Shown here: positions 7,250 to 51,935 of the stretch, piece by piece
How positions within the stretch are numbered: the stretch's first letter is position 1
Layout: each line of letters begins with the position of its first letter
Assembly (NCBI RefSeq): GCF_028372415.1
Contig: NC_092876.1
Span: forward strand, 65,482,885-65,546,884
Direction of reading: 5' to 3'
DNA from: Notamacropus eugenii
Lineage: Eukaryota; Chordata; Mammalia; Diprotodontia; Macropodidae
Length of the DNA: 64,000 bases
The notes under the pieces: generated by a model
Seen by the model: the letters and a program-made list of their open reading frames with translations, nothing else
The model's database searches: none
Told to the model about the DNA's origin: nothing
Made by a program: the position numbers and the translations under genes

Positions 7250-7437
7250 CTTCAATATTCTATGTTCCTAGAACTTTACCTTTAGAATTTTGAGAAACCA
7301 TAGAAGCCATCAAGTCCATGAAGAAACTGAGCCCCAGAGAAATATCCAAGGTCACTGAAATAGTAAATGGCAGGACAGGGTTGTAAATACAAGTCATCTC
7401 ACTCCAAATCCATCACCCTTTCCATGGTACCATGGTA
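7250..7437 (-). mobile_element. MIR-type SINE, antisense, abutting an array
   Basis: 'agaaactgagccccagagaa', 'tccaaggtcactgaaatagt' and 'ctccaaatccatcacccttt' mark an antisense MIR/CORE body. It runs into the 33-bp minisatellite starting near 7437. Confidence 0.7.
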
Positions 7438-7925
7438 CTATTCTAAAGTTCTCTCTACTCTCTGGTATCATAGGTTCTAATTTTCTTTTTACCCTCTGAC
7501 ATTCTGAGTTCTAAGGTTCTTTCTGCTTTCTGAGGTCTTGTGTTCTAAGGTCCCTCCCAGCTCTGATATTCCATGTTCTAAGATCCCTATTAGCCTTGAC
7601 ATCCTGAGTTCTAAGGGCCCTCCCAGCTCTGGCATTCTGTGTTCTAAGGGCCCTCCCAGGTCTGATATCCTGTGTTCCAAGGGCCCTCCCAACTCTGATA
7701 TCCTGTCTTCTAAGTTTCCTCCTACCTTTGCCATTCTCTTTTCTAAGGACCTTCCCAGCACTTACATCCTGTTCTGAGATCTATATTGTTAGATCTTATG
7801 CATTCTAAGATCCCTGCCAGGTCTGGCATTCTCTGTTCTAAGATCCCTCCCAGTCTTGACATTCTCTTTTCTAAGATCTCTTCAAAATGTTGTATTTTGC
7901 ATTCTAAGTGCCCTCCCAGCAGTAC
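7437..7925 (-). repeat. 33-bp minisatellite array 1 (reverse orientation, about 14 units)
   Basis: Tandem units with period 33, each carrying 'CCCTCCCAGCTCTG', then a 'gacatcctgtgttctaagg'-like stretch. The central units (7590-7720) are the best conserved and both ends are worn. As 33 is a multiple of three, long frames stay open on both strands (90, 79, 88 and 75 codons); these are not genes. Confidence 0.93.
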
Positions 7926-8019
7926 CTCTCCAAAGTGCCAAAGTGCTTTTTGCAGAGAGCAGCCCATTCTAGTGGAGATTGTTGTAAGCATTTGCAATGA
8001 CCTGGGCACTTAAAAATGT

Positions 8020-8910
8020 CACCCCATTTTGATTGATCTTTTTTGTTTCTATATACTTACATTTCCTGGTGTATGTAGGTCTCTTCCTTTCCTTCCCAGA
8101 AAGCCATCCCTTGTAAGAAATAAAAGGACCCTAAAAAAACAGTTCAAGAAAAATAACCAACATATCAAACAAAAGTCAGATGTTAAATGTCGCGTCTCAC
8201 ACCCATAGCCCTCCACCTCTGCAAAGTATTCAGGAAGTCATGGGCTCATAGATCTGAAGATAGAAGGAACATCAGAGAACTTCCAGTCCAACACCATCAT
8301 TTTACAGATGAGGAAAATGAGGCCCAGGGAAGGGCAGTGATTTGCCCAAGATCACACAGGTGGTAAAAAAAAACCAGAGGCAGAATTTGAACTCAGGCCC
8401 TCTGACTCTAATGTTAGAAGTCTTTCCACCAGATAGAGGGCCTGCTTGCTCATTATATTTTCATAGCATTTCATTTAATTGTTGTATTGTTGGTTTTCTC
8501 ATTCACATTGTTGTAGACAATGTGTCTACTGTTTTCCAGGTTCTGCTTTTCATCAGTTCATGTAAATCTTCACATGCCTCTCTATATTCATTATGTTCAT
8601 TGTTTGTTATAATTCTATTTCATTACATTCATGGACCACAAGTTATTTAGCCATTCTCTAGTCTATAGGTGTCTATTTTGTTTCCAGTTCCTTTTTTTAA
8701 CTACAAAAAAAGTGTTGCTTAGCATATTTGAGTCCTTTCTTTAGGTCATAAATTTTCTTAGCATATCTGCCTAGAAAAGTGATTGCTGTATCACCGGGTA
8801 CTGACATTTTAGTCATGTTCTTTGCATTATTTCAAATTACTTTCCAGAGTGGTTGGACCCATTTACAGTTCCACCAATGATGCATGAGTGTGCCTGTCTT
8901 TTTTCAAGAT
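8020..8910 (-). mobile_element. L1 3' end, minus strand, split by a SINE
   Basis: Antisense L1 3' UTR ('cccagaaagccatcccttgt') is followed by the antisense ORF2 C-terminal region: 'catcagttcatgtaaatctt', 'tcattacattcatggaccac', 'ttatttagccattctctagt' and 'agttccaccaatgatgcatg'. A SINE at about 8238-8440 interrupts it. It is 5'-truncated and strongly decayed. Confidence 0.85.
8238..8440 (-). mobile_element. MIR/CORE-type SINE inside L1, antisense
   Basis: 'catcattttacagatgagga', 'aaatgaggcccagggaaggg', 'gcccaagatcacacaggtgg' and 'tttgaactcaggccctctga' are the antisense CORE-SINE. L1 sequence resumes on its far side, so the SINE inserted later. Confidence 0.85.
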
Positions 8911-9143
8911 CTGGGCACTTCTGAGTCACAGGCAGGGCTCTGAATCAGGCAGAATGCTTTGTTCGACTGTCTGGAGGTTTATGGTGCTCCTCCAGCAATT
9001 CCAATATTTCCATTGGAGAAAGTGAGTATGAAGCCTGTTTCTATCTTGACTTTCTTCTTGTTTGGTTTGAAAGTCCAGGGAAGCAGTCAGGATTGCCTTT
9101 TGATTTCCCCTTTGCCTCTTTTCCCAGATTGGTGTGAGCCAGT

Positions 9144-9161
9144 GGGGGGGGGGGGGGGGGG
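9144..9161 (+). repeat. Poly-G tract, 18 bases
   Basis: Uninterrupted run of 18 G. It is one of three G runs of 14 or more in the window. The length may be uncertain because of sequencing slippage. Confidence 0.9.
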
Positions 9162-9254
9162 ACGGGAAAGAATGTCTATGGATGAGGCATTCACCCAGTC
9201 CACTGGTTTCCTACCTTCTTTTTATAACTTTTCAGAAGCATGAGGGTGGGATAG

Positions 9255-9535
9255 AAACAGCCCTGAGCTAGGAAGAGGTTCTGGAGCCTTAATTTCCTCA
9301 TTTGTAAAATGAACATAACACTTGCCCTCTCCCCCAACTCCCCTAATCCTTAATATATCATGTTGTGGAAAGAACCTTGGACTTCAAGAGTCAGAAGGCA
9401 GGGGTTCATTGTCTCTCTTGTTCGGGTGTAAGCTCCCCAAGGGAGCATATCCTTATATTCTCAGCCCCTAGCCCAATGCCTGACATACAGTAGCGGCTTT
9501 ATAAACGCTTGTTGATTTAGTGATTAATTTGACTT
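9255..9535 (+). mobile_element. MIR fragment and L2 3' end
   Basis: A MIR piece ('aatttcctcatttgtaaaat') at 9290-9330 is followed by an L2 end at about 9405-9535 ('taagctccccaagggagcat', 'cagcccctagcccaatgcct', 'aacgcttgttgatttagtga'). Confidence 0.65.
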
Positions 9536-9775
9536 GAATTCTGACTGTGGTGCTCATAAGCTGTGTTATCAATGGGCAGTCCCTTCATCTCTTAGACCAT
9601 CCATTTGCTCATCTGCTAAATGCAGATACATATTGCAATACAAGGATGTTTGGAGAACCAGATGAGAGTGTGGTTTTTGTCATGTATACCAGCACAGAAA
9701 GTACTGCTTTAATTGTTACAGACGCTAGACTCTCCTTCACTTTAGGGAATTAAAGGTCATGGAACCAGATGAGGC
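9535..9775. other. No feature recognised
   Basis: A 68-codon frame at 9547-9753 has no recognisable domain and no supporting context. The lone frame is likely chance. Confidence 0.4.
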
Positions 9776-9779
9776 CTTG

Positions 9780-9965
9780 AAACAATAGAAGAATACTGCC
9801 CCCTGAAGTCAGAAGGCCTGTGCTCAAATCTTACCTTTGATGTTGATGAATGGTATGATTTAAAGAAATCTCCTCATATCCAGAGCCTCATCTTCCTTAA
9901 ATGTAAAATCAGTTGGACTAGATAGCCTCTGAGATCCTCTCCAGTTCTAGAACTAGGGTCCTAAT
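9780..9965 (+). mobile_element. MIR/CORE SINE, sense, leading into an array
   Basis: Sense SINE with 'gcctgtgctcaaatcttacc', 'gagcctcatcttccttaaat' and 'ggactagatagcctctgaga', ending in the tail 'cctctccagttctagaacta'. It sits directly against array 2. Confidence 0.7.
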
Positions 9966-9967
9966 AT

Positions 9968-10290
9968 TGAATGTTAAAATGGAGAATATTAGAGCTGTGA
10001 GGTTTCTTAGAACACGGAATGTTCTTAGAATACAGGATGTCAGAGCTGGGAGGGCCCTTAGAACACAGGGTGTCAGAGCTGGGAGGGTCCTTAGAACACA
10101 GGATGTCAGAGTTGGGAGGGGCCTTAGAACACAGGATGTCAGAGCTGGGAGGGCCCTTAGAGCACAGGTTGTCAGAGCTGGGGAGGACCTTAGGACAGAA
10201 AATCAGCTGAAACAGACCTTAAAACAGAAAAAGTCAGAACTAGGAGGGCTCTTAAAACTTAGAATATTTGTGCTGGAAAAGACCAAAAAA
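9968..10290 (+). repeat. 33-bp minisatellite array 2 (forward, about 9 units)
   Basis: Units of the form TCAGAGCTGGGAGGGCCCTT plus AGAACACAGGATG repeat every 33 bases from 9968 to about 10200, then degrade. The right end passes without a break into an antisense SINE body (10260-10420), so the array occupies the SINE tail position on both sides. Confidence 0.94.
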
Positions 10291-10420
10291 CCTTAGATAT
10301 CATATAATTTAGACTTCTCATTTTACATGAGGGAACTAAGTCCCATTAAGTGACTTGCCCATGTCCCAGCCAAGAGAATGGGTTGGTTCTGCCTCTTGGC
10401 CAGCCCTGACAGTGTCTGAA
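10290..10420 (-). mobile_element. MIR/CORE SINE body, antisense
   Basis: 'acttctcattttacatgagg' and 'aagtgacttgcccatgtccc' are the antisense core. Its 3' end is continuous with array 2. Confidence 0.65.
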
Positions 10421-10660
10421 CAGAAGCAGGCCCCATCTCTTAGTGCATCTTTTTTAAAATGACAGATATCTGTTACTGTGGACAACCTGAAAGCAGTGAA
10501 GCTCAAGCAGCCCCTCAGGAAATCTTGTTCCTTTTAGTTTCCTGACTTTCAAAGGGAACTAGCCCAGAAGAGCTGCTGTTCTGGCATTAGTTGATGGGAC
10601 GGCTTATGTGTCTGCTGACCTCATCCTTAGGTGTTAAAGTTGACTCTGATTACCTGTATA

Positions 10661-10801
10661 CCAGGGGTGGGGAACCTGCAGCCTCCAGGCCACATGTGGC
10701 CCTCTAGGTCCTCAAGTGATACCCTTTGACTGACTTCAAACTTCACAGAACAAATCCTTGAGGCCACATGTGGCCTCGAGGCTGAAGGTTCCCCATCCCT
10801 G
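10661..10801. mobile_element. hAT-type MITE with terminal inverted repeats
   Basis: A 141-bp near-palindrome opening CAGGGGTGGGGAACCT and closing with the inverted copy AGGTTCCCCATCCCTG. Inner arms 'ggccacatgtggcc' and 'ggccacatgtggcctcga' also mirror each other. Flanks ctgtatac and gtctagac agree at 5 of 8 positions; the right flank fits the 8-bp nTCTAGAn target of Charlie-like hATs. It is too short to encode a transposase. OposCharlie is a likely family name, not verified. Confidence 0.88.
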
Positions 10802-10804
10802 GTC

Positions 10805-10915
10805 TAGACTTTTAAGTTCCCTGAGGGCAAAAGCTATTTTTATTTTTGCCTTATTATAACCATGTCTGGCACGTAATAGATGCTTACCAAATGTTTGTTG
10901 ATCGACTGATTCATT
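10805..10915 (+). mobile_element. L2 3' end
   Basis: 'gttccctgagggcaaaagct', 'ccatgtctggcacgtaatag' and 'aaatgtttgttgatcgactg' are the L2 3' UTR and tail. The hAT MITE lies immediately upstream and probably inserted in or beside it. Confidence 0.75.
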
Positions 10916-10964
10916 GGCTCCAAATTTAGGATTTCAACTTAAATATACTCTCTGTGGATTGTTG

Positions 10965-11075
10965 AAAAAGTCTCTGCCCCTTTCTTAGCTTCAGTTTCCC
11001 CATCTGTAAAATGGGGCAAAATTAGACTAGATGACCTCCAACGTTCCTTCTAAGAAGTCTTAAGATCTTATGCTA
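10965..11075 (+). mobile_element. MIR/CORE SINE 3' half, sense
   Basis: 'tcagtttccccatctgtaaa' is followed by 'actagatgacctccaacgtt' and a worn tail 'aagtcttaagatcttatg'. Confidence 0.75.
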
Positions 11076-11079
11076 GGTC

Positions 11080-11910
11080 TTTCCCTCAGTTAAGGAAATT
11101 TCCTCCTTATCCAATTTCTCCCCCAACCTTCCTCCTTCCAGAAATTCATTATTGCCTGCTATCTTGGGAAGGAGACTTTAGCAATTCTCTTTCCTTGACT
11201 GCCTCACCTCCTTTCCCCTCCATCTAGTCCCTAGACCAGGTCAGATTTCTCCTCAGATCAGAGCAGGGACCTTTCTGGGGACCTGGTTTCCAAAGAATCT
11301 TTGAGATTCCTTTCTAGGCCCTGGCTAATGGAGTCCCTGCCTGTGGCCAAGGTAGTTCCATCCTCTATGGGTGGAAAGTCATAGCAGTGAGTTTCACATG
11401 CCCCTCCTCCCCTTTTGTCCTCCTCCTTTCCTTTGAAAGATAATTATCTTTAAGCAGAAATATGAGGGCACTTGAGATTGTCAACATTTGTGTTGAAGTG
11501 CCTAAATAAACCTCTCTTTATACTTGCCTTACTCTACTTCCAGGTGAGTCCCCTTTGTTCCTCTTCTGAAAAGTGGTGGAGGGCTCCTCCCCAATATTTT
11601 TCAGCTTCAGTTGTGTCATGGTAGTATAGGGGCTTATGAATAGAAGAACAAGGATGTCTGGTGCTTGGGTTGCTATTTTCTCCCAGAGAGTAGCTCTGAA
11701 TTCATGGAAGTGATGCCGTTGAGTGACCTCCACTCCTACTCAGACAGTCGTGTGGAGAGAAGCCATAGGTATCAAGGCATAATTCCAGTCCGATGCCAGA
11801 GATGCAACCCTGGAGGCCTACCTCCTGACATTTTGATATGTTGGATCATGGTGGGGATGGGGGGAAGGGAGAGGGAGGAAACCCATCATAGACTCCCTGA
11901 AGGGGAAGAG
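11080..11910. other. No gene seen; non-repetitive intergenic DNA
   Basis: Unique-looking sequence with short frames of 71-84 codons on both strands and no recognisable protein or repeat signature. Confidence 0.5.
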
Positions 11911-11916
11911 ACTTCA

Positions 11917-12100
11917 TGAGATAAGATCACAGATATAGAACCAAAATTCATCTAGTCCAACCCTCATTTTTTAGAGATGAGGAAACTGAGGCCCAAGAGA
12001 TGATTGAGGTCATACAAGTCAAGTAAATCACCAAGTTGGAATGGGAACCCAAATGTCCAAATCCAATGCATTTTCCATTGAGCTCTGCTCACCCAATTCA
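11917..12100 (-). mobile_element. MIR/CORE SINE, antisense
   Basis: 'catctagtccaaccctcatt', 'agatgaggaaactgaggccc', 'gaggtcatacaagtcaagta' and 'aatccaatgcattttccatt' form an almost complete antisense CORE-SINE. Confidence 0.85.
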
Positions 12101-12429
12101 TTCTTTCTTGGATTCTTTTCTCTAACAAATCTGATAAGGGGCCTTTGGGCCTCAACTTGGAGGTCTCCAACGAGCAACCCTAAAGGAAGAGAAATCACAG
12201 GGTGGCTAAGCTTTGTTTATGTTCATTTGTATCTCCTAGGTGAGCTTTCAGAAGCCTGGCAACGAGGTGGCTGCCATCAGATGTGGCTGTCCAGACAGCA
12301 GTGAGGGATGGTTTATGTCCCGTGACATACCTGCTGTTCTCTGCTTTATCTGGATATTTTTCTTCTTTCCCCCTAGATTCCTCCTGAACCTCATTAAATG
12401 CATTTTATCCCTAAGCAAGAGACTTTTCA

Positions 12430-12527
12430 TTCAATCCAGCATAATTCAATTGAGCACCTACTATGTGTCAGGCACTGTACTAAACTGGGAATATGATTAA
12501 GGAAACAAAGACAATTCTTGCCCTCTA
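12430..12527 (+). mobile_element. Ancient interspersed repeat, left half (split by RTE)
   Basis: 'gagcacctactatgtgtcag' and 'gcactgtactaaactgggaa', then 'aagacaattcttgccctc', match a widespread mammalian repeat also seen near 19560, 30850, 53265 and 54125. It breaks at 12527 and resumes at 15945 ('ttcttgccatctaatgggga'), so the RTE LINE inserted into it. Confidence 0.75.
12515..12527. repeat. Target-site duplication of the RTE insertion, left copy
   Basis: ttcttgccctcta here matches ttcttgccatcta at 15945-15957 at 12 of 13 positions. The two copies bracket the twin-primed RTE. Confidence 0.85.
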
Positions 12528-13722
12528 GTAGTAGTAGTAGCTATCCTTCTTTCTCGAAGAGGACCAAAACAACTTCACCATGACAAAGTGAAGTTTCAGT
12601 GTGTCTGACTGTGGCTGATCAGACCAATACGAGCTTGGAATGTTCTACCACAGGTTGGGCACAGACAGTCTGTATGAATATTTGGGGTGGATAGCCCAAA
12701 TTTGCGCATCCTGTGTTTACTTTGTGCTGTCTCAATTCTACTTTGCTCACAGAGAGCAGCACTTTTTCTGATGTGGGCATGCCATGCTGAGCAGTCCTGT
12801 GGCAGTGTCTCCCATGTTACAAATTCAAATCCAAAGTTCTTGAGAGAGACCTTGAGTGTGTCCTTGTATTGCTTCTTCTGACCACCATGTGATCACCTGC
12901 CCCATGTGAGTTCTCCATGAAATAATCTTTTTGACAAGTGTACATTTTGCATTCAAACAATGTGGCCAGCCCATCGGAGTTACACTATCTTAAGCATAGT
13001 TTGAATGCTTGGCAGTTCAGCTTGAGCAAGGACTTCAGTGTCTGGTACCTTATCCTGCCAGGTGATCCTCAGAATCTTCCTAACACAGTTCAAATGGAAG
13101 CGATTCAGTTTCCTGGCATGGCGCTGGTAGACTGTTCATGTTTCACAGGCATACAACAGTGAAGTCAGCACAATGGCTCTGTAGACCTTCAGTTTGGTAG
13201 TCAGTCAAATACCTCTTCTCTTCCAAACTTTCCTTCAGAGCCTCCCAAACACTGAGCTAGCTCTGGCAATGTGTGCATCAACCTCATTGTAAATGTGTAC
13301 AACCCTGGAAAGTATACTACCAAGGTAAGTGAGCTTATCCACAGCATTCAAAACTTTTCCATTTGTTGTAACCGATAGTTCCACATATGTATGGTGTGGT
13401 GGTGGCTGATGGAGCATCTGTGTTTTCTTGGTGTTAATTTTTAGGCCAAAATTATCACAGGCAGCAGAGAATTGATCCATACTTTGTTGCATCTTGGCTT
13501 CAGAGGCTGCATTGAGTGCACAATCATCTACAAAGGGAAGATCATGCACCAACACTCCCTCCACTTTGGTCTTGGCTTGTAGCCTTTTCAAACTGAAGAA
13601 CTTATTTCTCACTGGAAGCAGCAGTGGCATTCGGCAGCCCCTTGGGTGTCTGAGCAGCCTTTTAAGGATCACACTGCTCACCTCCTGGTGTGAGGAAGGG
13701 AGCTAGAAAAGGTGCCCTAAAC
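12528..13722 (-). mobile_element. RTE-clade LINE, 3' half (RT core to tail), minus strand
   Basis: Minus-strand translation of 13681-13235 gives the reverse transcriptase core and thumb: 'SLKRLQAKTKV', catalytic 'FVDDCALNAASEAKMQQSMD' (usual YADD), 'CDNFGLKINTKKTQMLHQ' and 'LTYLGSILSRVVHI'. These are typical of RTE/CFDP2-like elements. Further 3' sequence ends in a (CTA)n tail at 12528-12540. This is the sense-oriented 3' part of a twin-primed insertion; its 5' part is inverted at 13735-15944. The open reading frame is broken past the thumb. RTE1_MD is the likely family. Confidence 0.88.
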
Positions 13723-13734
13723 ATTATCTGCTTA

Positions 13735-15944: not shown

Positions 15945-15957
15945 TTCTTGCCATCTA
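15945..15957. repeat. Target-site duplication of the RTE insertion, right copy
   Basis: Partner of 12515-12527. The ancient host repeat continues rightwards from here as 'aatggggagacaacatgtaa'. Confidence 0.85.
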
Positions 15958-15989
15958 ATGGGGAGACAACATGTAAAAGGAAGATGAGA

Positions 15990-16885
15990 CTTCCCAGAGC
16001 CAAGATGGTGGAAGAAGTAGTAAATTGCCATCACTCTCTCATATTCGCTTACAAAGAATCATAAAATAACACCCCAAAATAAATCTTGGAACAGCAGAAC
16101 CAGCAAAAAGATGGGTAAACAATCTTTGAGCCCAAGAAACTTGGACAATTGGCAGGAAAGGTCTGTATCACTTCAGGAAAAGGGGAGGGTAGATCAAGAC
16201 AGGAAGCATCCCAGCAAACCAGCAGCAAGCCCCACATCAGCAAACCAGTAGGAGATCCTGAGCCCCAGGGCAGTGGAGCAGGCAACACCAGGACCCTACA
16301 CTTGCCTCAGTATAGCCAGGGGGACAGGCAGACTCCACTCTGCTCCACATGCTTCCGCATAGCCCTGAGTAAGCAGATGGCTGCCAGTGGCCAGACCACC
16401 ACATGCTTCAGTGTGGATCCAGGAAAACACAGAAACACCCCACCAGCCTCAGCACATGCAAGACGCCACCACTAGGACCCCAGCTCAGCACCAGATAAGC
16501 TGCCAGACCCCTATGACCTTCAGCAATGCCACCCACCCTTCCCACCCCACCCGCTCCCTTAGTACAGCACAAGACTTGAGGGTCCTGAATGGGGCTCAGA
16601 GAAACATCAGTACAGCACCAGGCAAACAGCAACTACCTGCAGTCTCTCACACAAGAAGCCTGAGACAATACCCCTCCCACCCTGCAGCTTAAAAGTCATT
16701 ATAAAAGAGTTGGAGAAAAACTGGGAAAAGAAGTGAGAGTGATACAAGAGAATTATGGGTAAAGAGTCAACAACTTGAAGAGAGAAAACAATTTTAAAAA
16801 GTAGAATTGGCCAAATGGAAAAGGAGATACAAAAATCCATGGAAGAAAGCAACTCCTTAAAAAGTACAATTGGCTAAATGGAAAA
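15990..16885 (+). mobile_element. L1/HAL1 5' fragment, plus strand
   Basis: Starts with the marsupial L1-type 5' end 'cagagccaagatggtggaag', shared with the HAL1 at 20616. It runs through 5' UTR and enters the ORF1 coiled-coil region ('ggaaaaggagatacaaaaat', 'gaagaaagcaactccttaaa'). It stops abruptly near 16885 with a short A run, so it lacks the rest of ORF1 and the 3' end. It sits within the same ancient repeat that hosts the RTE. An autonomous L1 or a HAL1 could be the source. Confidence 0.75.
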
Positions 16886-17210: not shown

Positions 17211-17212
17211 TT

Positions 17213-17720: not shown

Positions 17721-17764
17721 TTTGTCATGCCATGGGAAGGCAATACACCTCTTCATTGTCTATT

Positions 17765-20600: not shown

Positions 20601-20601
20601 A

Positions 20602-23815: not shown

Positions 23816-24400
23816 AGACTCAGATGACCAGAGACTGTCCTGGACTAATATCCCTCCCACTAGGCTTCACTACCTCCAATTACTGTGATCCTGAGTCACA
23901 GAGAAAAGGTTATTTGATGTTTAGATTCCCCCTGCATTAGAGGGAAAGGGTGTAGGCACTTTTCCATCCAGAATGGCTAAATGATTTTGTAAAAGATGTA
24001 AATCCTCAGCGATCCAGAATTACTCATTGTCCATTGAGTAAAGATTGTTGAGGTTTTATGTTTCAAGTATTTTTCTATTTAAACATATGGTTGCTTTTGC
24101 CCTACAATTTTTTGAGGTTTTCTGAGATCACTTTAAAGTCGATGAAGAGTGAAGAAAGCAGAGTCAAAAAAACAGTGATTTCAGTGATTGCCTGCTGTCT
24201 ATAAAGTCTACATGGAAAGTCAAGTTTAACGGTCAATGTCAGGACCATACGGTCAAAGCTGGTTTGTCGTTCACCCTGCTTCCCTCTCAGGGAATTGTGT
24301 TTGATGATTGGGGTCATTGTGAAGCCATGAACTGGGTTTAAACCTTCATTAAAGGTTTGGATGAGATGACAGCAAAGGTACTTTCCAGTTATAACAGTCT
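23815..24400. other. No gene seen; non-repetitive DNA
   Basis: AT-rich unique-looking sequence without a coding signature. Confidence 0.45.
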
Positions 24401-24401
24401 A

Positions 24402-24605
24402 TACTCTAACATTCTCTCTTCAAGGGCCCTCCCAGCTCTGACGTTCTGTGTTCTAAGGGCCTTCCCAGCTCTGATGTTCTGTGTTCTAAGGACTCTCCCA
24501 GCTCTGACATCCTGTGTTCTAAGGGCCTTCCCAGCTCTGACATCCTGTGTTCTAAGGGTCCTCCCAGCTCTGATGTTCTGTGTTCTACCATTTTGTGTTC
24601 TGAGA
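24402..24605 (-). repeat. 33-bp minisatellite array 3 (reverse, about 6 units)
   Basis: Well-conserved units 'CCCTCCCAGCTCTGACATCC' with 'TGTGTTCTAAGG' at 33-base spacing. Open frames of 88, 144 and 119 codons cross it in three frames, as expected of a period divisible by three. Confidence 0.95.
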
Positions 24606-41249: not shown

Positions 41250-41408
41250 TAGAGAATGTCAGAGCTGAGAGGGGCCTTAGAACCCAGGATGTCAGAGCTG
41301 GGAGGGCCCTTAGAACACAGAATGTCAGAACTGGGAGGGCCCTTAGAACACAGGATGCCAGAGCTGGGAGGGGCCTTAGAACACGGGATGTCAGGTTTGG
41401 AGGGGCCT
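41250..41408 (+). repeat. 33-bp minisatellite array 4 (forward, 5 units)
   Basis: Clean units from 'gaatgtcagagctgagaggg' on, each with AGAACACAGGATG-like spacers. It begins where the L3 3' end stops and leads straight into a sense SINE at 41410. Confidence 0.95.
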
Positions 41409-41409
41409 A

Positions 41410-41680
41410 AGCAATCATGTAATATAGTAGAAAGAGCACTGGACTTTTGAATCATCTGATCCGAGCTTGACCTCTGGCTATGACAGGTATTGTCCATTTT
41501 GACCTTAATAGTTGTGTGACATTGGGTGAGTCCCTTAATTTCTCTGAGTCTTATTTCCTCACCTGTCAAAAGAGGATGATGATACTGGTTGTTTTTGAAG
41601 AATCAGGTGGAGAGAAATGACTCACGCAAGATCTCATAATGATTCAGTGGCAGAAGTGAGATTTGAACCCATGAACAAGA
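41410..41680. mobile_element. MIR/CORE SINE pair
   Basis: 41410-41585 sense ('agtagaaagagcactggact', 'ttgtgtgacattgggtgagt'). 41600-41680 antisense ('caagatctcataatgattca', 'gtgagatttgaacccatgaa'). Confidence 0.75.
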
Positions 41681-42720: not shown

Positions 42721-42741
42721 GAGGCTATGGACTCAGGGGTT

Positions 42742-42747
42742 TTTATT
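42742..42747 (-). promoter_or_regulatory. RUNX3: Candidate RUNX3 polyadenylation signal
   Basis: AATAAA on the minus strand, directly past the conserved-looking UTR block. An alternative AATAAA is at 42542-42537. Confidence 0.5.
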
Positions 42748-43031
42748 GGTTAATTGACTTCTTTCTTAGTAACCCTAAGTGACTACTGCATTCAAATCTA
42801 TTACACAAACTGGCACCATCATCTTGGCTTTGCCCTAAGGGCCAGTGGGTGGCACACACACATACTAACACACACATACACAGTCTTAGGACAGGTTGCT
42901 TCAATGTCTCTCAGAATTATATTATTATAACAAGTACAACAAAATCGGATTTTACCATTAAATAGTACAGAAGGCAGACCCAGGTTTACCGTACAAGCAT
43001 TAAAAATACTCCGGACACTCAAGCGAATTAC

Positions 43032-43038
43032 AGTGCAA
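43032..43038 (-). promoter_or_regulatory. RUNX3: miR-130/301 seed match in RUNX3 3' UTR
   Basis: Minus strand TTGCACT, within TTTGCACTG, which also contains the miR-148/152 seed match TGCACTG. Seed identities are from established miRNA families; function here is inferred. Confidence 0.45.
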
Positions 43039-43877
43039 AGCCTATTTTCACCACCCAACAAGAGACAGGGGAACGGGGGTGGAAGTTTTCAAAAGACTTG
43101 GGGGAAGGGTTGGTATCTGGGCACCAAAATGGAAGGGGATCCTTTGGCTGGGCAGGGGGAGAAACCTCGCCACCTGTCTCCTGCCATCAGCAGCATGTTA
43201 GGCCCTTCCTTCCTGTTCCTGCTGCTGTGCATAGGGGTGGCCCCGTTCTACTTTCTAGGTGGAGATCAGGGTCAGAGCCCCTGCCTCTGCTGGGCGTGGC
43301 TGATGGGGGCACAGCGCTAGGTGGGAGCCACATGACGAGGAAGAAGTCACTGTTTCTGCTGGTATCCTTCTGGCTGGCAGGAAGGTGGCCACACAGGGGG
43401 GTGGTCCCTGGGACAATGGGTTTTAGAGATTTCCCAAAAGGCCAAGGTTAGGATGTTTGAAGAAAACAGGGTGATTAAGAAGGTAGTGACTATGCCTTTT
43501 TCTCCAGGGAACAGAGCAAGAAGGTACATAGGGGAGAATTTAGGTGAGCACTTCATAACGGCTCCCTATATCTACAGGAAACCTTCCTAGGAGCAGGCAT
43601 GCTCCTGGTAGCATCAGGGATGGGCGACCTCACTGCAACAAACCCCATGGCAACCAATGACCTTTTCTTTTTTCCTCTTAGAAATTATTTCCACATCCCA
43701 GTAAACAGTTCTAAGTAACAAGTGCTTTCTTATCTGTTTACAGCAAACTGGAGGCAATGGATAGGTTCTGTACAAGAAGCTTCCTGCTTCCTAAATCCTT
43801 TCACTTAACAGTCATTTTCTATAACAAAAGAACCTGATGCTGACTGCACTATGGGTAGAGAATTGGGCCAGGGGAAA

Positions 43878-44170
43878 CTCAGAATGTCACAGCTGGGAGG
43901 GCCCTTAGAACACAATGTCAGAGCTGAAAGGAGCTTTAGAACACAGGGTGTCAGAGTTGGGAGGGACCTTAGAACACAGAATGTCAGAGCTGGGAGGGGC
44001 CTTAGAACAGAGAAGGACAGAACCACAAGGGGCCTTAGAAGAGTATCAAAGCTACATAGGAACTTCTCACAGTGACAGACTGATCACAGCATGTGGCAGC
44101 TGGAAGGGCCCTTCCAACAAAGTGCCAGGAACAGAATGTAAGTGTTGTGGGTGGGAGGGGCACAGTAGAA
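43878..44170 (+). repeat. 33-bp minisatellite array 5 (forward, about 9 units), within RUNX3 3' UTR
   Basis: The first four or five units are clean and later ones degrade. The array passes into an antisense SINE body (44200-44330: 'taagggtcatgtaatccaac', 'gaaggaagaaactgaagaca'). In the RUNX3 transcript the units appear as the reverse complement. Confidence 0.93.
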
Positions 44171-44199
44171 TATAGAATATGAGAGTTGGTAGAGATTGC

Positions 44200-44330
44200 A
44201 GACTGTCAAGGCCTTAGATACCATAAAAAAAATGGAATTTAGGTGGAAAAGCACCTTAAGGGTCATGTAATCCAACTTGTCTCATCATTCGAAGGAAGAA
44301 ACTGAAGACAAGAGGGGAAATGCCTGACTT
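44200..44330 (-). mobile_element. MIR/CORE SINE body, antisense
   Basis: Contiguous with array 5; the array takes the place of its 3' tail. Confidence 0.7.
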
Positions 44331-45034
44331 TGAGCTAAGGCCCTACTCTGTGTGCTCCAGTCAAGGCAAGCCTTCTGGTCTCCTTCAGGGATCTCTGTAC
44401 CTCCCTGTGCACTTTCACCCTTAAAGTTAGGGTGAAAGATCTCTATCCTTTTGCTCTCCACCCCTTTTTATGAACCTCAAATAGAGCTGTCCTGCAAGGA
44501 AAACTTTTGATAAAGATGGTACCCAGTCAAGGGACCTGTGTGTGGACTTTACTGGGAGGCCTTTGCACCCTTCTCCCAGGACTCTCTGTCCCAAGGGAGA
44601 AGCCCTGGGCTTCATATCACTAGGAACTGGATCTCCCTAAAGCCATGGTCCTATTGTGTCCTTGGCCTGATACTTGGCCCATCCCAGGCTGTGAAAGAGA
44701 GATAGGGTCTAGCAAAGGCAGGGAGCAGAAAGATGTGGGAGGGTAGTGGGAGACCTCCTTTGCCTTTCAAAGGATGAGAGGACACTGACCAGGAGCAGAG
44801 GCTGTCAGGCACCAGATGAAGCAGGAGCCTAGAGCTAAGCAGGTGGATGGCTTTCCTGGTGATTGACAGTGCTCCATTGGGCAATCACTAAGGAAGGGAT
44901 ACAGTCCCTGTCTTAAGGAATCAAGTACTCTGATGGATAGAATGCAGACCTTGGAAAACGGAACAGGGAAGAACAAAGGCAGGGGATGTTGGGCAGGAGG
45001 AAAGGGGAAAGTTTTCCTTCTCTGGGGATTCAGT

Positions 45035-45260
45035 CTGAAGCGAATCCTAGAACATACATAGAATGCTAGAAGAGGCCTTAGAACACTGGCTAGAGAAGGA
45101 AAGGACCTTAGAACACAGAACGTTAGAGTGGCTCTAAAGGATCTAAGGGCACAGAACATTAGAACTGGAAGGAACATCAGAACACAGAAAGTTGAAGCAT
45201 GAAGGTGCCCTAGAACACTGAAAAAAGTGGCATTTGAAGGGAACCTTAGAACACAAGATT
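45035..45260 (+). repeat. 33-bp minisatellite array 6 (forward, about 7 degenerate units)
   Basis: 'ccttagaacac' recurs at about 33-base spacing with many changes between. It runs directly into the antisense SINE at 45255-45380 ('ggagggaccttggaggtcac', 'agaggaaactgaagctcaga'). This junction shows most clearly that the array grew from a SINE tail. It lies within the inferred RUNX3 3' UTR. Confidence 0.85.
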
Positions 45261-45385
45261 TGGAGCTAGGAGGGACCTTGGAGGTCACTGGGTCCGGCTC
45301 CCTCATTTTACAGAAGAGGAAACTGAAGCTCAGAGCGGGGAGGGACTTGGTCTGAGGTCACACAGCACCTCACAGTCCTCGCCCA
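45255..45385 (-). mobile_element. MIR/CORE SINE body, antisense, in RUNX3 3' UTR
   Basis: 'ccctcattttacagaagagg' and 'cttggtctgaggtcacacag' are the antisense core. It continues array 6. Confidence 0.8.
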
Positions 45386-45668
45386 GGTTCTCCCATTGCT
45401 TCCATGATGGTTCTTGGAACATGGGTCCTATGTACACAGCAGTCAGCAACTGAAACGCATCCCCCCTCCCTCCCCAAGCCTGGGTTTGATGTGTGGACAG
45501 CTCCATCTCCTTCCTCCCCTGAGTCTCAGGGCTCCCTCTCTCTGGGAAGGAGGGGCCCTCGCAGTGAGGCTGGCAAAGCCCTGCTCAGAGCCTGGTACTT
45601 CAGGCCAGAGATACTCCATAGGGACCTGGAGTCAGCGTTGGCATGGGAGGATTCCAAGGAGCTGCCCA

Positions 45669-46214
<546 letters not shown>

Positions 46215-46315
46215 TCAGTAAAATGGGGAAGGATTTATTAGGGATGTTATCAGGGGGCAGGGCAGGGAGAAGAGTATGAGGCCTTAGAACCCAGACTACC
46301 TGAAAATAACACAAC

Positions 46316-46665
46316 ATGACACTCAGAGACTATGGGATGTCAGAGCTGGGAGGGCTCTTAGAACACAGGATGTCAGAACTGAGAGGACCCTTAGAACACT
46401 GGATGTCAGAGCTGGGAGGGCCCTTAGAACACAGGATGTCAGAGCTGAGAGGACCCTTAGAACACTGGATATCAGAGCTGGGAGGGCCCTTAGAACACAG
46501 GATGTCAGAGCTGAGAGGACCCTTAGAACACTGGATGTCAGAGCTGGGAGGGCCCTTAGAACACTGGATGTCAGAGCTGGGAGGGGCCTTAGAACACAGG
46601 ATGTCAGAGCTGGGAGGGACCTTAGAACATATGATGTCAGAGCTGGGAGGGACCTTAGAAGTATA
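46316..46665 (+). repeat. 33-bp minisatellite array 7 (forward, 10 units, 66-bp higher order)
   Basis: The cleanest array. Ten units at exact 33-base spacing, about 125 bases inside the intron from the RUNX3 acceptor. Units alternate between an 'acaggatgtcagagctgaga' type and an 'actggatgtcagagctggga' type three times over, giving a 66-bp dimer repeat. All frames are open for 116-159 codons; these are not genes. Confidence 0.97.
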
Positions 46666-46759
46666 AAAACATTCAAGTCTCCTAGACTGCCACACAGTAT
46701 CTGCTTCCAGGATTTCAAACCCCCAGCTTATGAGATGAAGGAAGGCTGATTCATGGAAT

Positions 46760-47030
46760 GCTAGGACACAGGAAGAGGATAATGACTCCCACGGTTGTTG
46801 TGAGAACAAAAAGATAATATTTGTAAAACATGCTTAGCCTAGTGCCTGGCACACAGTAGGTTCTATGTAATGCAGACCATCCCCTCTCTCCATGTTCCCT
46901 TCCTTTTGCTCCCCAGAAGATAAAAGCTTGGGGGCAGGGGTTGTTTCATTCTTAATTTTTTTCTGTACAGTGTCTACCCAGGCTGGGTACCTAGTAGGTG
47001 CTTAATAAAAGCTGGTTGATTCACTGCTGA
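46760..47030 (+). mobile_element. MIR 3' half and L2 3' end
   Basis: 46775-46880: 'gttgttgtgagaacaaaaag', 'tagcctagtgcctggcacac'. 46900-47025: 'aaaagcttgggggcaggggt', 'taggtgcttaataaaagctg'. Confidence 0.75.
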
Positions 47031-47084
47031 GCACCTAGAACATTCTATGTTCTAAACATAGGGGAAGTGACTGCTCTGGGTCAT

Positions 47085-47850
47085 TTTGGTAGAAAGTGCG
47101 ATAGATGGAGTATGAGAAGACCTGAGTCTGAGACCCAGCTCTGGGACTAACCGGATGCATGGTCTTGGGCAAGTTCACTTAGCCACTCTGGGACTCAGTT
47201 TTCTCTCTTGCTATGTGGGCGCATCGAACTTGGAAGGACTGGGCAGGTCCACCCTGCTCTGAATTCTCTAGTCCTAGATTTAGAATACAGTGTCAGAGCT
47301 GGACCAGGGCACAGGCCATAGCAGTAGCTGCCATTTCTACTGCCTGTAGAGATAACAGTGGCCAAAGGGCTGTCCTTGGACACCAGAAACCTGGGTTCAA
47401 ATTCTGTCTTGCATACTAACTGTGTGACTTTAGGAAAGTCACCTGACCTTTGACTGCCTCAGTTTCCTCAACTATAAAACGGGGATGATAACAGCATTTA
47501 TCTCCTCAGGTTGTTGTGGGGATTAAATGGAATAATGTTTGTGAAGTGTTTAGCCCAGTGCCTGGCACAGAGCTGGGGCTACAGAAATGCCAGTATTATT
47601 ATCATCACAAGAACCTGGTGAGGCTGGGCTCTTATTTCCCTCCTTTGAAGATAAGGTAACTGAGGCTCAGAGATATTAAGTGACTTGCCCACAGTTACAT
47701 TGCATTGTCAGGGATGGAATTTGAACCCAGGACCTTAAGAGGCCATTGAGCACAATGCTCTCATTTTAGAGACATGGAAAATCAAGGACAAAGAGGACTA
47801 GTGACTTGCCTGACGTTACATGGTAAGTTAAGGGCAGAACTGCGATAGAG
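47085..47850. mobile_element. Three MIR SINEs
   Basis: 47085-47215 sense ('gaagacctgagtctgagacc'). 47350-47605 sense, full length ('gaaacctgggttcaaattct', 'gcctcagtttcctcaactat', 'tagcccagtgcctggcacag'). 47620-47850 antisense, with a repeated core ('aagtgacttgcccacagtta' and 'agtgacttgcctgacgttac'). Confidence 0.82.
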
Positions 47851-47859
47851 ATCCCGGCT

Positions 47860-48770
47860 CCCTGATTTCTGGGGGTTGGGTTTTTAGCCCGGACACAGGA
47901 AACTGCTTCCCTCTCTCTGCCTTGCCCTGCCGTAGGCACATCAATGGCCAATGGAGTGTGGACTCAGAGCCCTCCCCATGCCCTTGGGTCCCCCAACATC
48001 AGAGTAGCGCCAGCCTCATCGACGTTGCCCACACGCCCTTCCCGAGGTTGGGCCAAGGGGCGGCCCCTGGAAACCTGAGATGCATACTGCTGCTGTCTGG
48101 TGGCCAATGAAAATAGTGGAAGGAAATGTTTATTTTCTTCTCAAAATTGCCCTGGCTGCTGTACTCACTGAATGAGTCCATTGAAGCTGTAAGAATTTCT
48201 CTGTGGCGGGGCGGTGCCTGGGCCCCATCCCCCAACTGAGCGGGACTGGAGAACGGCTGAGGTGCCTGGACCACTGGGGCTCTGTCCCCCCTCCTCCAGC
48301 AGACCTGGCTGCCTCCACCCTACACAACCCCAGGGCTGCTATTTCCTCTGAGGCCCCCAATGCCTGGGCCTGCCTGGTGGTCGGCAGATACACAGAAGCT
48401 GAGCTGGGGGCTCCCCACTATTAACAGATGAAGAAGGAAACCCCAGAGGAGGAAGGCCAGCTAGAGGTGGGAATGGGGGAGGCCAAAGGGAGAAAAGAGA
48501 ATGATGTCCCCCCAGCCTGCCCAGGTGGGAAGCAGAGCGAGGAGGAGGAGAGGCGACAGAGTACTGGGTTCAAATCCCACCTCACATGGTGTTGTGAACA
48601 GGGTACTAACTCTGCAATGAGAAAAGCTGGTTCTGAAACCCAGATTGGTCATGTACACCCTTTGTGACTTTGTTCAAGACGCTTGATTTGAAATGGGGGG
48701 CAACTCCTCCCCCATTCTCTATGCTGGGCAGAAGGGAATGCTACTGGAGGAATTCTCTGACCTGGAAACT
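47860..48770. other. Unique intronic DNA with a splice-site-flanked 18-base stretch
   Basis: No repeat recognised for most of this stretch; 48560-48700 has SINE-like pieces. On the minus strand 48186-48169 is bounded by TTCTTACAG and GTGAGTAC, giving a possible 18-nt exon that would keep the RUNX3 frame. There is no other evidence for it. Confidence 0.35.
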
Positions 48771-48774
48771 AAAT

Positions 48775-49012
48775 CTTAAGGCCCTTCCCAGCTCTGACAC
48801 CCTGTGTTCTAAGATCCCTCCCATCTCTGACATACTGTGTTCTAAGGGTCCTCCCAGCTTTAGCATCCTGTGTTCTAAGGGCCCTCTCAGCTCTGACATC
48901 ATGAATTGTAAGGGCCCTCCCATCTCTGACACGCTGTGTTCTAAGGGCCCTCCCAGCTCTTACATCCTTGGTTCTGAGGTCTCCTTCAATCTGACATTCT
49001 ATACCCTAAGAA
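48775..49012 (-). repeat. 33-bp minisatellite array 8 (reverse, about 7 units)
   Basis: 'CCCTCCCAGCTCTGACATC' with 'TGTGTTCTAAGG' units at 33-base spacing. Opposite in orientation to array 7, which lies in the same intron. Worn relatives continue at about 49205-49300 beyond a hAT insertion. Confidence 0.94.
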
Positions 49013-49195
49013 GGGGTTCTGAACCTTTTTGGAATTATGGACCCCCGTGACTGTTTAGTGAAACCTACATACAGATGGACCCCTTCTCAGAATATGATTT
49101 AAATGAATAAAATACAATCCATACGATTACAAAGGGACCAATTATATTTAAATAAAAACAAAGTTTATAGATCCTTGGTTAATAAGCCCTGCCCA
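49013..49195 (-). mobile_element. hAT-Charlie-like transposon inserted in array 8
   Basis: 'aaggggttctgaaccttttt', 'accccttctcagaatatgat', 'aatacaatccatacgattac' and 'caattatatttaaataaaaa' match a mammalian non-autonomous hAT with CAGGGGTTCTTAACC-type ends. Array-like sequence lies on both sides. Confidence 0.75.
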
Positions 49196-49299
49196 CCATG
49201 TCTTTAATGACCTATGTTCTAAGGTCCCTTTAACTCTTCACGGTCTTTCTTGTAAGGGCCCTACTAGCCCTGATGCCCCTTATTTCACATCCTTCCCAG

Positions 49300-50430
49300 G
49301 GCTACCATTTTCTGCCTCAAGGCAGAAGGCCTTCCATGATTTTCAATCTGGCTAAGTGGACTCTGGGCATTCCTGGCTGAGGCTGCTGAAGGTAAGTGTT
49401 ACTTGTCACTCACCAGATTCCCTGGTTGGGCCCTGTGCTGGGGAGTGGGAAGAAGGAAAGGGAGGTGGCATGGGATGGGAGGCACAGTGTGGCCAGCTCC
49501 CTCCTGGCTCCAGGGGGCCAGAGCTCTCCAATCTCCCAGTGCTTGCTAAAGGTCTCTGATTATGGCGAGTGTGACATCCAAATGAAGGTTTCCTTGGGGG
49601 TCCTCACTGGCATGGGGCTGGGCATGGATGCTTGGGCATAGCCAGTACCAGTGGGGAGACCTACAAGGCTACTCTGTCTGAATAAAAATCCCTGCTCTGG
49701 AATCACCTCATGTGTTCATCCAGCCTCTACCTGAAGCCCTGTGAGGTTGGGGAGCCCAGCACCTCCCTCGGAGGCCCATATCACTTTACTTTTTCTTGAC
49801 ACCCTACTGGCATCTTGGTGACCCTCACTCTTGGGCCTAATGTTCTGCCCTCTAGGGCCAGGCTGAATAAGACCCTTTTTCTGTGGGTTAGTGAAGATCA
49901 TATCCCCATGGGCCCCACCTTCCTCTTCTCATGGCATCATCCCTATATCTCACCTCACCCAGCTCCCAAAGCTAACATTCCTTTGAGATGCCACCAGTTT
50001 TCTCTCTGTCTGTGTAGTTTCCCTCAACTTGACAGGTCGTCCTAGGACACTGAAGTACTCCAGACCCAGCCACTCATTCAACAGACAAGGAACCCGAGCC
50101 CGAAGGGGTTCAGGTGAACCGCATGCTTCCAGTTACACGTAGGGACCAAGTGGCAGTATGTGAATTCTCCCTCTGCTCTGGAGCGTTTCCTGACTCCAGA
50201 CCAGGCTTCCCCCAGAAGCAGCTACTGTACTTCAGCCCTAGCTGAAAGTGGCTACTATCTGGCTCTCTTTTATCCCCTCAAGGCCAGTCCCCCTAGGCCA
50301 GTCCCTCTAGTCCAGCTGAGCCTGGCTCTCTGTCACCAAGGCACAGGGACAAACTCAATCAACTCGCTTCCTCCCGTACAGACTTGCTGTCACTAGGGCT
50401 GGCTGAAGGGCTGTGGTTTTATCCTGAGAA
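49300..50430. other. Mostly unique intronic DNA with an L3 fragment
   Basis: 49695-49915 resembles antisense L3/CR1 ('catccagcctctacctgaag', 'tgttctgccctctagggcca'). The rest has no recognisable feature; frames up to 81 codons lack support. Confidence 0.45.
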
Positions 50431-50661
50431 ATGGATATTCTAAGTAAAAAGGCAGCCAAGACAACAAAGCTTTTTGGCTGGACTATCTACCCCTACTGCA
50501 GCCCCAAACCTCTTCTGCAGAGGGATAAGGGTACCAAGGAAGGGGAAGATGTGGAGGTGGCCAATCAGCTGATCAGCAAGTATTTGATAAATATATCACT
50601 CACTGGAGAGGCAAAGACACAAATTAAACAGTTCCTATCTTCAAAAACACTGCATACCTTA

Positions 50662-50800
50662 GAAGAGAGAATGTTAGAGCTGGGAGGGCCCTTAGAACAC
50701 AGAATGTCTGAGCTGGGAGGGCCTTAGGACATAGCATGTCAGAGCTGGGAGGGCCCTTAGAACACAGAATGTCAGAGCTGGGAGGGCCCTTAGGATGTAG
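50662..50800 (+). repeat. 33-bp minisatellite array 9 (forward, 4 units)
   Basis: Four clean units of TCAGAGCTGGGAGGGCCCTT type, one lacking two bases. It lies in the RUNX3 last intron. Confidence 0.94.
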
Positions 50801-50809
50801 ACTGTAATA

Positions 50810-51365
50810 ACTTAAGACTTGGATGAGCCAGTCAAGGCTGAGCTCTCTGGACCTCTCCCTCCTGGTCAGCCAGGTATGGGTTTAGCCAATATTTTCTTAG
50901 GCAGCATGAGTACAGGTGAGGGAAAAAGAAGTAGCCCAGAGCTAAAGACCAGGGTGTCATTCAGACTTTCTCCATCCCTTTCTGTCTAGGCTTCTCTGCC
51001 TATGGACTTTATGCTACAACTTAACATGTACCCCTTCAAAGAAAGGAAGATCTTGGTGGAAGCTGCTGTCCTCAGAAATAGATTCCCAGTCATCTTTCAC
51101 AAAAGATGCCTTTCCTGTGAGAGAAGGGGGCAATTCTGGGGGCACACCCTGCCTGAGGCCTCACTAACTACATCAGGAGATGAGCCAAGCATTGATAGAG
51201 AAGAGGTAGCAAAGTCTCTGTTTGCTCAGGTGTCGAACACGTTAGGAGTAAAAGGTTTATTTATTTACGAGCTATAACTTAGGTGATGGTTTTATAAATC
51301 ATATAAAATAACCAGATCAGAGGAAAGTAAGGAAATAAAAAAATACACACATATACAAACATACA
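50810..51365. other. No feature recognised
   Basis: Unique-looking DNA with a 91-codon frame at 51002-51277 that has no family resemblance. A short CA-rich patch lies at 51345-51377. Confidence 0.4.
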
Positions 51366-51935
51366 CACACACACAAATGGTCTATGTTCTGAGGCTTCTT
51401 GGAACATCCTCAGACATCCTCTGAATTTCCAAGAGCACGACCTCTGTTTATATTCTAGGTTCTCAGGGTGCTTCTAGCTTTGATTTCCTATTTTCTAGAA
51501 TTTCTAGACTCATTCAGCAGCAAAAACCTCATGTTCTGGGGTGTTTCTCAGGTCTCACATTTTATGTTCTAATATCTTAGGTTTTACGTTCCTTCCTAAT
51601 GTTTTAAAAGTCTAAAACATTCTTGAAGGAACTGTTGAGCTTGTGTCTTTGTATTCTCAGAGTCTGGCTCAGTGCCTGATCTATAAGAGCTATTTAAGAA
51701 AGTTTTCTTGAGTTGAATTGAATCTTACCTTTAGCTCTGATATTCAGCGTTCTAAAGTCTCTTCCATCTCTGACATTCTGTGTTCTAAGCTTCCTGCCAG
51801 CTCTGATATTCTGTGCTCTAAGGATACATCCAGCTCTGACATCCTGTGTTCTAAGGGTCCTCCCAGCTCTGACATCCTGTGTTCTAAGACCTCCCAGCTC
51901 TGACATCCTGTGTTCTAAGCTTCCTCCCAGCTCTG
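51366..51935 (-). repeat. 33-bp minisatellite array 10 (reverse; degenerate left part, 7 clean units right)
   Basis: 51366-51600 contains worn 'ttctaggttctcagg'-like units. An L2 tail lies at 51640-51715 ('tggctcagtgcctgatctat'). 51725-51935 has clean units 'CCTCCCAGCTCTGACATCC' with 'TGTGTTCTAAG'. It passes directly into an antisense SINE at 51940. Confidence 0.9.

Follow-up and report, generated by a model that had tools for sequence, protein, structure and literature searches.

How a single minisatellite unit comes to be shared by many separate loci is the question raised by a 64,000-nt stretch of the Notamacropus eugenii genome (GCF_028372415.1, NC_092876.1:65,482,885-65,546,884, forward strand), which is called the window below. 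In the Jeffreys core minisatellites, with their 33-bp myoglobin-intron repeat, a motif is also common to many loci, but only a short core is shared, whereas here it is the whole unit.

As the initial annotation had described, a single 33-bp unit forms ten arrays in the window, some on each strand (Table 1). Decayed remnants of the unit are present as well. Tandem Repeats Finder (TRF) recovers nine of the ten, with period-33 starts at 7539, 10024, 24404, 41256, 43876, 46335, 48777, 50657 and 51733. The remaining one, previously placed at 45035, is real and too decayed for TRF, and it is found by wrap-around alignment, which gives the unit divergence listed for array 6, and by an nhmmer match. 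The array formerly set at 51366 also exists, but it starts at about 51725, and nhmmer detects only the faint traces listed in the table before that point. Matches to at least 24 of the 33 unit positions occur at 54 places in the window (both strands) and at none in 20 third-order Markov simulations, while a threshold of at least 22 gives 65 in the window and 7 in total over all 20 simulations. Array 7 displays a partial alternation of two unit types.

Table 1. Arrays of the 33-bp unit and neighbouring MIR3 sequence in the window (divergence from the unit consensus for arrays, decay for SINE bodies).
Feature	Position	Strand	Details
MIR3 abutting array 1	7283-7439		opposite orientation to array 1
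Array 1	7441..7925	+	~14 full units; units 7609-7707 6-12% from consensus; both ends decayed
Array 2	9965..10290	-	~10 units; those at 10031-10162 differ from consensus by 3-6%, the outer ones by 15-42%
MIR3 body adjoining array 2, upstream in tail orientation	10291..10371	-	decay 21%
Decayed MIR3 3' end leading into array 3	24351..24402	+	weak match, 11.4 bits; outside the 26 adjacent-body arrays
Array 3	24389..24600	+	5 units 3-12% from consensus, and decayed ends
Array 4	41250..41414	-	5 units
MIR3 on upstream (tail-sense) side of array 4	41420-41581		opposite orientation to array 4
Array 5	43876..44240	-	units 43876-44007 6-16% from consensus; decayed units (30-43%) to 44240
MIR3 body upstream of array 5	44242..44415	-	decay 34%
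Array 6	45040..45300	-	decayed throughout; full units 22-36% from consensus
MIR3 body upstream of array 6	45301..45373	-	51.8 bits over 45253-45373; outside the 26 adjacent bodies
Array 7	46290..46660	-	10 units 3-9% from consensus; distal part decayed
MIR3 body upstream of array 8	48586..48770	+	decay 41%
Array 8	48773..49012	+	6 units 9-12% from consensus; one end decayed
Decayed remnant of array 8	49202..49322	+	past an inserted stretch; best unit 23/33
Array 9	50657..50812	-	4 units 6-12% from consensus
Array 10	51725..51940	+	~6 units, 3-18% from consensus; faint decayed traces at 51409-51497

Array ends are older than array centres, as divergence falls from 16.4% at the ends to 5.2% at the centres. 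The units of array 7 had been described as far more alike than units between arrays, and local homogenisation as therefore active. Array 7 is more uniform, with 9.8% divergence inside it and 14.5% against the other arrays (units within 20% of the consensus), but the wording was too strong. Over the complete set of 78 full units from the ten arrays, divergence is the same within arrays (28.6%) as between them (28.4%, permutation p 0.59). Restricting the comparison to the 50 units that lie within 20% of the consensus gives a small gap, 14.1% within and 16.1% between, and none of 2000 permutations produced one as large. Local homogenisation does occur, but it is weak beside the sharing between arrays.

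The unit corresponds to the terminal ~33 bp (3' end) of MIR3-type SINEs, where MIR3 identity means matches to an approximate, uncurated MIR3 consensus and to a consensus of the window copies. Of 71 arrays, 26 have a SINE body immediately upstream in the same orientation under a strict criterion, compared with 5.9% of 2340 random places, and 31 have one under a lenient criterion, compared with 9.4% of random places. The three other possible configurations are found at 2, 3 and 4 of the 71 arrays, which does not exceed their random rates of 5.8-7.1%, and a recognisable adjacent SINE body in any configuration is absent at 38 arrays (strict) or 33 (lenient). The adjacent bodies have diverged by 29% from their own consensus (22 rows with at least 40 aligned bases, of the 26). 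Between loci, the bodies are 44% apart and the units 22%, and the units are closer than the bodies in 153 of 155 locus pairs with at least 50 comparable bases. Many arrays have thus grown in tandem from the 3' tails of old MIR3-type SINEs, each at an insertion of its own. Slippage that paired the terminal TTCTA of a tail with the internal CTCTAAGG may have produced the first duplication.

LINE3-mobilised MIR3 and MIR3_MarsA have been reported from marsupials (PMC2910653), and MIR3/Ther-2 is described as having had the longest activity period among the SINEs of the devil (PMC3403934). The present arrays resemble these CORE-SINEs (the marsupial MIR3_Mars types) in that the unit is a SINE 3' end and that a MIR3-type body runs on into the array, in the right orientation, at 26 of the 71; they differ in the tandem growth of the tail, and the word 'tandem' is absent from the main texts of both papers.

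Across the 3.4-Gb genome, 2773 period-33 junctions were counted, a number that, like all genome-wide repeat counts given here, is a lower bound, and such arrays therefore extend far beyond the window. The unit itself is also present on C1, C2, C4, C14, C15, C23 and C25, and is thus not confined to the window, an outcome that the initial annotation had named as evidence against its reading. A perfect two-unit 70-mer occurs at 57 sites in 23 loci, all of them in C14:52-53 and C15:54-69 Mb; its T-flavoured sister occurs at 10 sites, 8 in the C14/C15 domain and 2 at one C25 locus, and 56 of 77 variant units fall in C14:50-61 or C15:45-72 Mb. The domain comprises C15:45-72 and C14:50-71 Mb and, in addition, small spots on C1, C4 and C25, and its array centres carry one derived unit, TTCTAAGGGCCCTCCCAGCTCTGACATCCTGTG. 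Unit copies inside the domain are more alike than copies elsewhere, and divergence in the variable part of the unit is 39.2% between 80 listed C1 places compared with 17.0% between the window loci under the same sampling pattern. Outside the domain, units are mostly private to their place. The core consensus is identical in 21 of 31 fetched C15 arrays, so that the unit is not private to a locus, and the exact consensus is less frequent on C14 (3/13) and in the window (3/9). Because the fetched loci were picked for holding exact units, their closeness is partly selected, and only the window, itself noticed for its arrays, and the C1 listing are free of that choice. Four random 5-kb samples of the domain hold one weak unit match in total, which indicates that arrays are patchy even there. 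Control patterns for the ancestral unit gave 0, 3 and 2 matches and cannot serve as a background map, since an intact ancestral unit hardly survives. The contig for C3 is only 1.25 Mb long, and absence on C3 and C5-C13 is therefore not used as an argument.

Clustering by region would be in keeping with segmental duplication of one ancestral array, which the initial annotation had linked to shared flanks; however, with MIR3 masked, 12 between-locus HSPs remain, none of which reaches at least 100 bp at an identity of at least 80%. As the flanks are unrelated between loci, segmental duplication is rejected and has practically no probability left. A young retrotransposed SINE or LINE that carried an array as its tail and inserted at these loci would agree with the position of arrays on SINE tails, but the bodies are old, and the perfect 70-mer is restricted to its two intervals, although retrotransposition is not expected to stay in one domain. 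A retrotransposed mobile seed of this kind is highly improbable and is likewise rejected. If a DNA element, or excised circles bearing an array, had hopped locally, this would account both for the regional spread and for the 38 arrays that lack a neighbouring SINE body. Such hopping is nevertheless unlikely, given that flanking sequence is not shared between loci, that most adjacent bodies have the expected side and strand (26, compared with 2, 3 and 4 in the other configurations), and that fresh units are flanked by decayed ones. Were circles reinserted by homology, this explanation would become one with the copying explanation considered below.

The initial annotation had offered a choice between a mobile seed and repeated tandem growth of one interspersed repeat. 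Tandem growth is right for the origin of the arrays, but local growth alone leaves unexplained why arrays on SINEs decayed by 29% share one unit inside one domain. Another local process would be parallel evolution. Here, each SINE-tail array would have turned over independently in a domain rich in GC and in recombination, with GC-biased conversion driving the same G/C variants to fixation from standing variation, and with homology-dependent recombination retaining intact units while shutting out mutated ones. Relative to the C1 majority unit, the domain unit has four differences, each a change from A/T to G/C, and among 80 C1 units two of these alleles stand at 26-30% and two at 9-13%. Furthermore, variants found in at least 3 units are enriched for changes from A/T to G/C (32 W>S and 25 S>W, compared with 46 and 95 among singletons; p 0.0036), private alleles are not shared between loci, and unit flavour shows no fine-scale autocorrelation along C15 (p 0.37). 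On the other hand, the core consensus common to 21 of the 31 fetched C15 arrays keeps the unit's other A/T sites as A/T, which argues against strong independent GC-biased conversion, and a local expansion outside the domain, at L084, has a private decayed unit. In simulations that were simple, with few settings and few replicates, units under purely local turnover ended at 28-33% divergence in all settings, given single copies that reach 29%, and without homology dependence the consensus drifted by 19-30% as well. Parallel evolution is rather unlikely.

The same simple simulations fit better with a star-like common origin at ~4-6% divergence than with independent growth or steady exchange. No multi-variant unit allele is common to different loci among 583 low-divergence units from 59 loci (null 3.05 +- 2.04), whereas in simulations, exchange at a strength that brings most loci into line leaves 157-433 of them. 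Ongoing exchange of variants between loci is therefore rejected. What we favour, with roughly an even chance of being right, is an origin from SINE tails, then past homology-directed overwriting of old arrays across the domain, and then local GC-biased turnover. In such an episode, some 4-6% of neutral divergence ago, the derived unit would have been copied by homology between arrays, possibly through ectopic gene conversion or template switching in recombination repair, with the old SINE-tail arrays acting as landing pads; afterwards, each array would have undergone private growth and mutation, with amplification biased towards G/C variants. That separate SINE insertions provided homologous landing pads and that a single unit was swept by ectopic copying over tens of Mb and two chromosomes, overwriting old arrays, is a possible but doubtful proposal. 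Since no copying event is seen among the units compared, which hold no shared multi-variant alleles, it is from the shared consensus alone that we infer the episode.

Several observations weigh against copying: exchange between C14 and C15 requires contact of non-homologous chromosomes or a later rearrangement, distance-limited copying might have given an autocorrelation of flavour along C15, the exact consensus is rarer on C14 and in the window than at the fetched C15 loci, arrays are patchy even in the domain, and the 38 arrays mentioned above have no recognisable adjacent SINE body. The distance to a chromosome end is ~45-72 Mb for the main spots on C14, C15, C1 and C4, a pattern that would agree with exchange between telomere-aligned non-homologous chromosomes in meiosis. 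Exceptions to this distance pattern are C1:520.8, C2:509.2 and C15:124-133 Mb.

A star-like pattern round one consensus at many loci could also result from purifying selection if the unit served, for instance, as a site for a binding protein or a recombination protein. Such selection is decidedly unlikely, as it is not expected to end at a domain border or to let array ends or whole arrays (array 6) decay, and per-site deviation counts, judged by eye, show no clear protected block. A host function is not needed to explain the pattern.

If past copying is the right reading, arrays that began at separate SINE insertions and were rewritten to one sequence over tens of Mb would be a natural record of ectopic exchange in the mammalian germline. 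The decayed SINE body adjoining an array would then serve as an internal clock, and it would become measurable, locus by locus, how far non-allelic gene conversion reaches and when it took place. A minisatellite unit common to several loci thus need not imply a mobile element or a duplication.

No description of the 33-bp family was found in open-licence PMC papers, but related systems are known. One survey of the human genome gives 7,276 cases of transposon-derived minisatellites with expansion by local duplication (PMC3389668), and SINE cases have been reported as well (PMC9659126). The human Alu and LTR and mouse B1 examples likewise show tandem growth from part of a transposon, whereas here one version of the unit is common to dozens of loci in one chromosome domain. 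The Drosophila 1.688 satellite is described as having chromosome-specific clustering, with concerted evolution in heterochromatic copies and a more ordinary pattern in euchromatic ones (PMC7642928). Its euchromatic arrays are similar in that they are short, belong to one family, and are scattered through euchromatin with an excess on one chromosome, but the present family has a 33-bp unit, separate SINE insertions as founders, and sharing over a domain rather than a whole chromosome. In random samples, GC content is 40.5-42.9% inside the domain (4 x 5 kb) and 35.7-41.9% outside it (3 x 5 kb), a set too small for a comparison. The arrays sit along the chromosome arms, among genes.

Nine of the ten 33-bp arrays claimed in the initial annotation are reported at period 33 by Tandem Repeats Finder (TRF), and profile and wrap-around alignment recover the tenth, near 45.1 kb, which has decayed too far for TRF; the array placed at 51366 exists, with its start at about 51725. 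In tail orientation (reading toward the SINE 3' end) the unit is TTCTAAGGGCCCTCCCAGCTCTGACATCCTGTG, and unit matches of at least 24/33 number 54 in the window versus 0 in 20 Markov simulations. The local homogenisation stressed from sequence inspection is present but weak, as divergence is 28.6% within versus 28.4% between arrays across all 78 full window units, and 14.1% versus 16.1% across the freshest 50. In array 8, units are fresh before an inserted stretch and decayed beyond it, as if the insertion had cut off the outer part of the array from homogenisation.

Features in the window and in three fetched loci outside it (C15 is NC_092876.1, C1 another contig)
Feature	Location	Strand	Observation
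GA dinucleotide repeat	window 1-262		long, imperfect, about 133 copies (TRF); at window edge
Open frame	window 45669-46214	-	181 codons, ends ...SVWRPY; between arrays 6 and 7; resembles the final coding exon of a RUNX-family (RUNX3-like) gene
Stretch within array 8	window 49013-49201		resembles old interspersed repeat
L081	C15:124.42 Mb, locus positions 163-1374		array, 38 aligned units
L084	C1:258.5 Mb		local expansion with own decayed unit
L003	C1:699.73 Mb		52-unit array far from main domain; GG flavour, four private consensus changes

As judged by sequence comparison, the 33-bp unit is the terminal ~33 bp of a MIR3-type SINE. An approximate MIR3 consensus matches the unit at its 3' end, and the CORE region continues directly into the unit both in a consensus built from 109 matches in the window, including many array units, and in one built after the array units had been taken out. 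Among 71 arrays 90 bp or longer, from 49 fetched loci and the window, a same-strand SINE body lies directly upstream of 26 (5.9% at random places), while the three other body configurations occur at 2, 3 and 4 arrays, not above their random rates, and 38 arrays have no adjoining body in any configuration at this strict threshold. The lenient threshold gives 31/71 versus 9.4%, with 33/71 lacking any body. Duplication as the source of the arrays is ruled out by the flanks, which, with units and SINE bodies masked, yield 12 matches between loci, none reaching both 100 bp and 80%. Passages in PMC3389668 and PMC9659126 treat transposon-derived minisatellites as well known, and others in PMC2910653 and PMC3403934 describe MIR3 as a SINE that LINE3 mobilises and that stayed active in marsupials for a long time; no description of the 33-bp SINE-tail family or of its domain-wide sharing was found in open PMC text.

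Averaged over the 22 of 26 rows in which 40 or more bases align, the SINE bodies contiguous with arrays lie 29% from their own consensus. Between loci these bodies are 44% apart and the units of the same arrays, ends included, 22%, the units being closer than the bodies in 153 of the 155 locus pairs that offer 50 or more comparable bases. Purely local turnover fits the shared unit poorly, since in simulation, with or without homology dependence, it leaves units at 28-33% divergence by the time single copies are at 29%. In arrays of at least seven units, the end unit is 16.4% away from the shared consensus, and units six or more positions further in are 5.2% away; in an accepted model, stated in PMC10048060, homogenisation is less efficient at array ends. 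An exact match between core consensus and shared unit is seen in 21/31 fetched C15 arrays, 3/13 on C14, 3/9 in the window and 0/7 on C1, C2 and C4 together. Because the fetched loci were chosen for holding exact units, a fairer test is to compare window and C1 by a junction pattern in which only CTTAGAACA is fixed at both ends of the 33-bp period and the 24 bases that separate them are free. At least 2773 such junctions occur in the genome (reversed control 0), which shows that decayed SINE-tail arrays also lie far outside the window. The free bases differ by 39.2% between 80 of the 100 places listed, all on C1, and the C1 arrays among those listed have thus drifted apart; the 20 junctions at 8 window loci differ by 17.0% between loci and by 12.3% inside a locus.

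The genome comprises 3.445 Gb in 254 contigs (C1 762 Mb, C2 540, C4 490, C14 478, C15 462 Mb), the window occupies C15:65482885-65546884, and the domain in which array centres carry the one derived unit spans C15:45-72 Mb and C14:50-71 Mb. The 35-base form of this unit has at least 401 matches (control 0); among the 100 listed, in contig order, 6 lie on C1, 1 on C2, 5 on C4, 38 in C14:50-71 Mb and 50 in C15:45-55 Mb. A variant form, listed in full, has 77 matches: 53 in C15:45-72, 14 in C15:124-133, 3 on C14, 5 on C1, C2 and C4 together, and one each on C23 and C25. A perfect two-unit 70-mer was found only in C14:52-53 and C15:54-69 Mb (57 matches, 23 loci); of the 10 matches found for its T-flavoured sister, 8 fall in that domain and the other 2 share a locus on C25.

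Four A/T to G/C changes separate the domain unit from the C1 majority unit, and among 80 C1 units two of the domain alleles have frequencies of 26-30% and the other two of 9-13%. The W>S:S>W ratio is 32:25 for variants in at least three units of an array versus 46:95 for singletons (p 0.0036, 34 arrays), and this W>S excess among amplified variants suggests GC-biased conversion. If GC bias had acted alone, the other A/T sites of the unit should have changed as well, but 21/31 C15 arrays keep them in their core consensus. Steady exchange between loci likewise fits poorly: when simulated strongly enough to give one consensus at most loci, it produces 157-433 shared multi-variant alleles, the same unit carrying several variants at different loci (means of two runs), and the data hold 0 (null 3.05 +- 2.04). 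A simulated star-like common origin with 4-6% single-copy divergence comes close to observation: 24-97% of loci, according to turnover, have the exact consensus, unit divergence is 4-6%, and shared alleles average 0-0.4 (further single runs 0, 0, 1). Since this origin fits, and local turnover and steady exchange do not, the best reading is a past episode, which we infer (the copying event itself was not seen), in which the unit would have been copied by homology into pre-existing SINE-tail arrays, each array then growing privately. For the Drosophila 1.688 family, part of PMC7642928 describes chromosome-specific clustering and assigns concerted evolution to heterochromatic copies.

In the full listing of the variant form, the T (GAATG) flavour occurs at 9/9 loci in C15:124-133 versus 14/51 places in C15:45-72, one of the 51 being the second place of one locus (Fisher p 5.5e-5), and no spatial clustering of flavour is found inside the main domain (p 0.37). 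In L081, all full units that have a base at the flavour site show the T of the second domain, C15:124-133, and a rare unit type recurs unchanged at offsets 532 and 961 (429 bp, or 13 units, apart), indicating a higher-order repeat. The main derived-unit spots (C1:699.7-700.8, C4:427.6-430.9, C14:50-71 and C15:45-72 Mb) are each some 45-72 Mb away from a chromosome end; C1:520.8, C2:509.2 and C15:124-133 Mb are exceptions.
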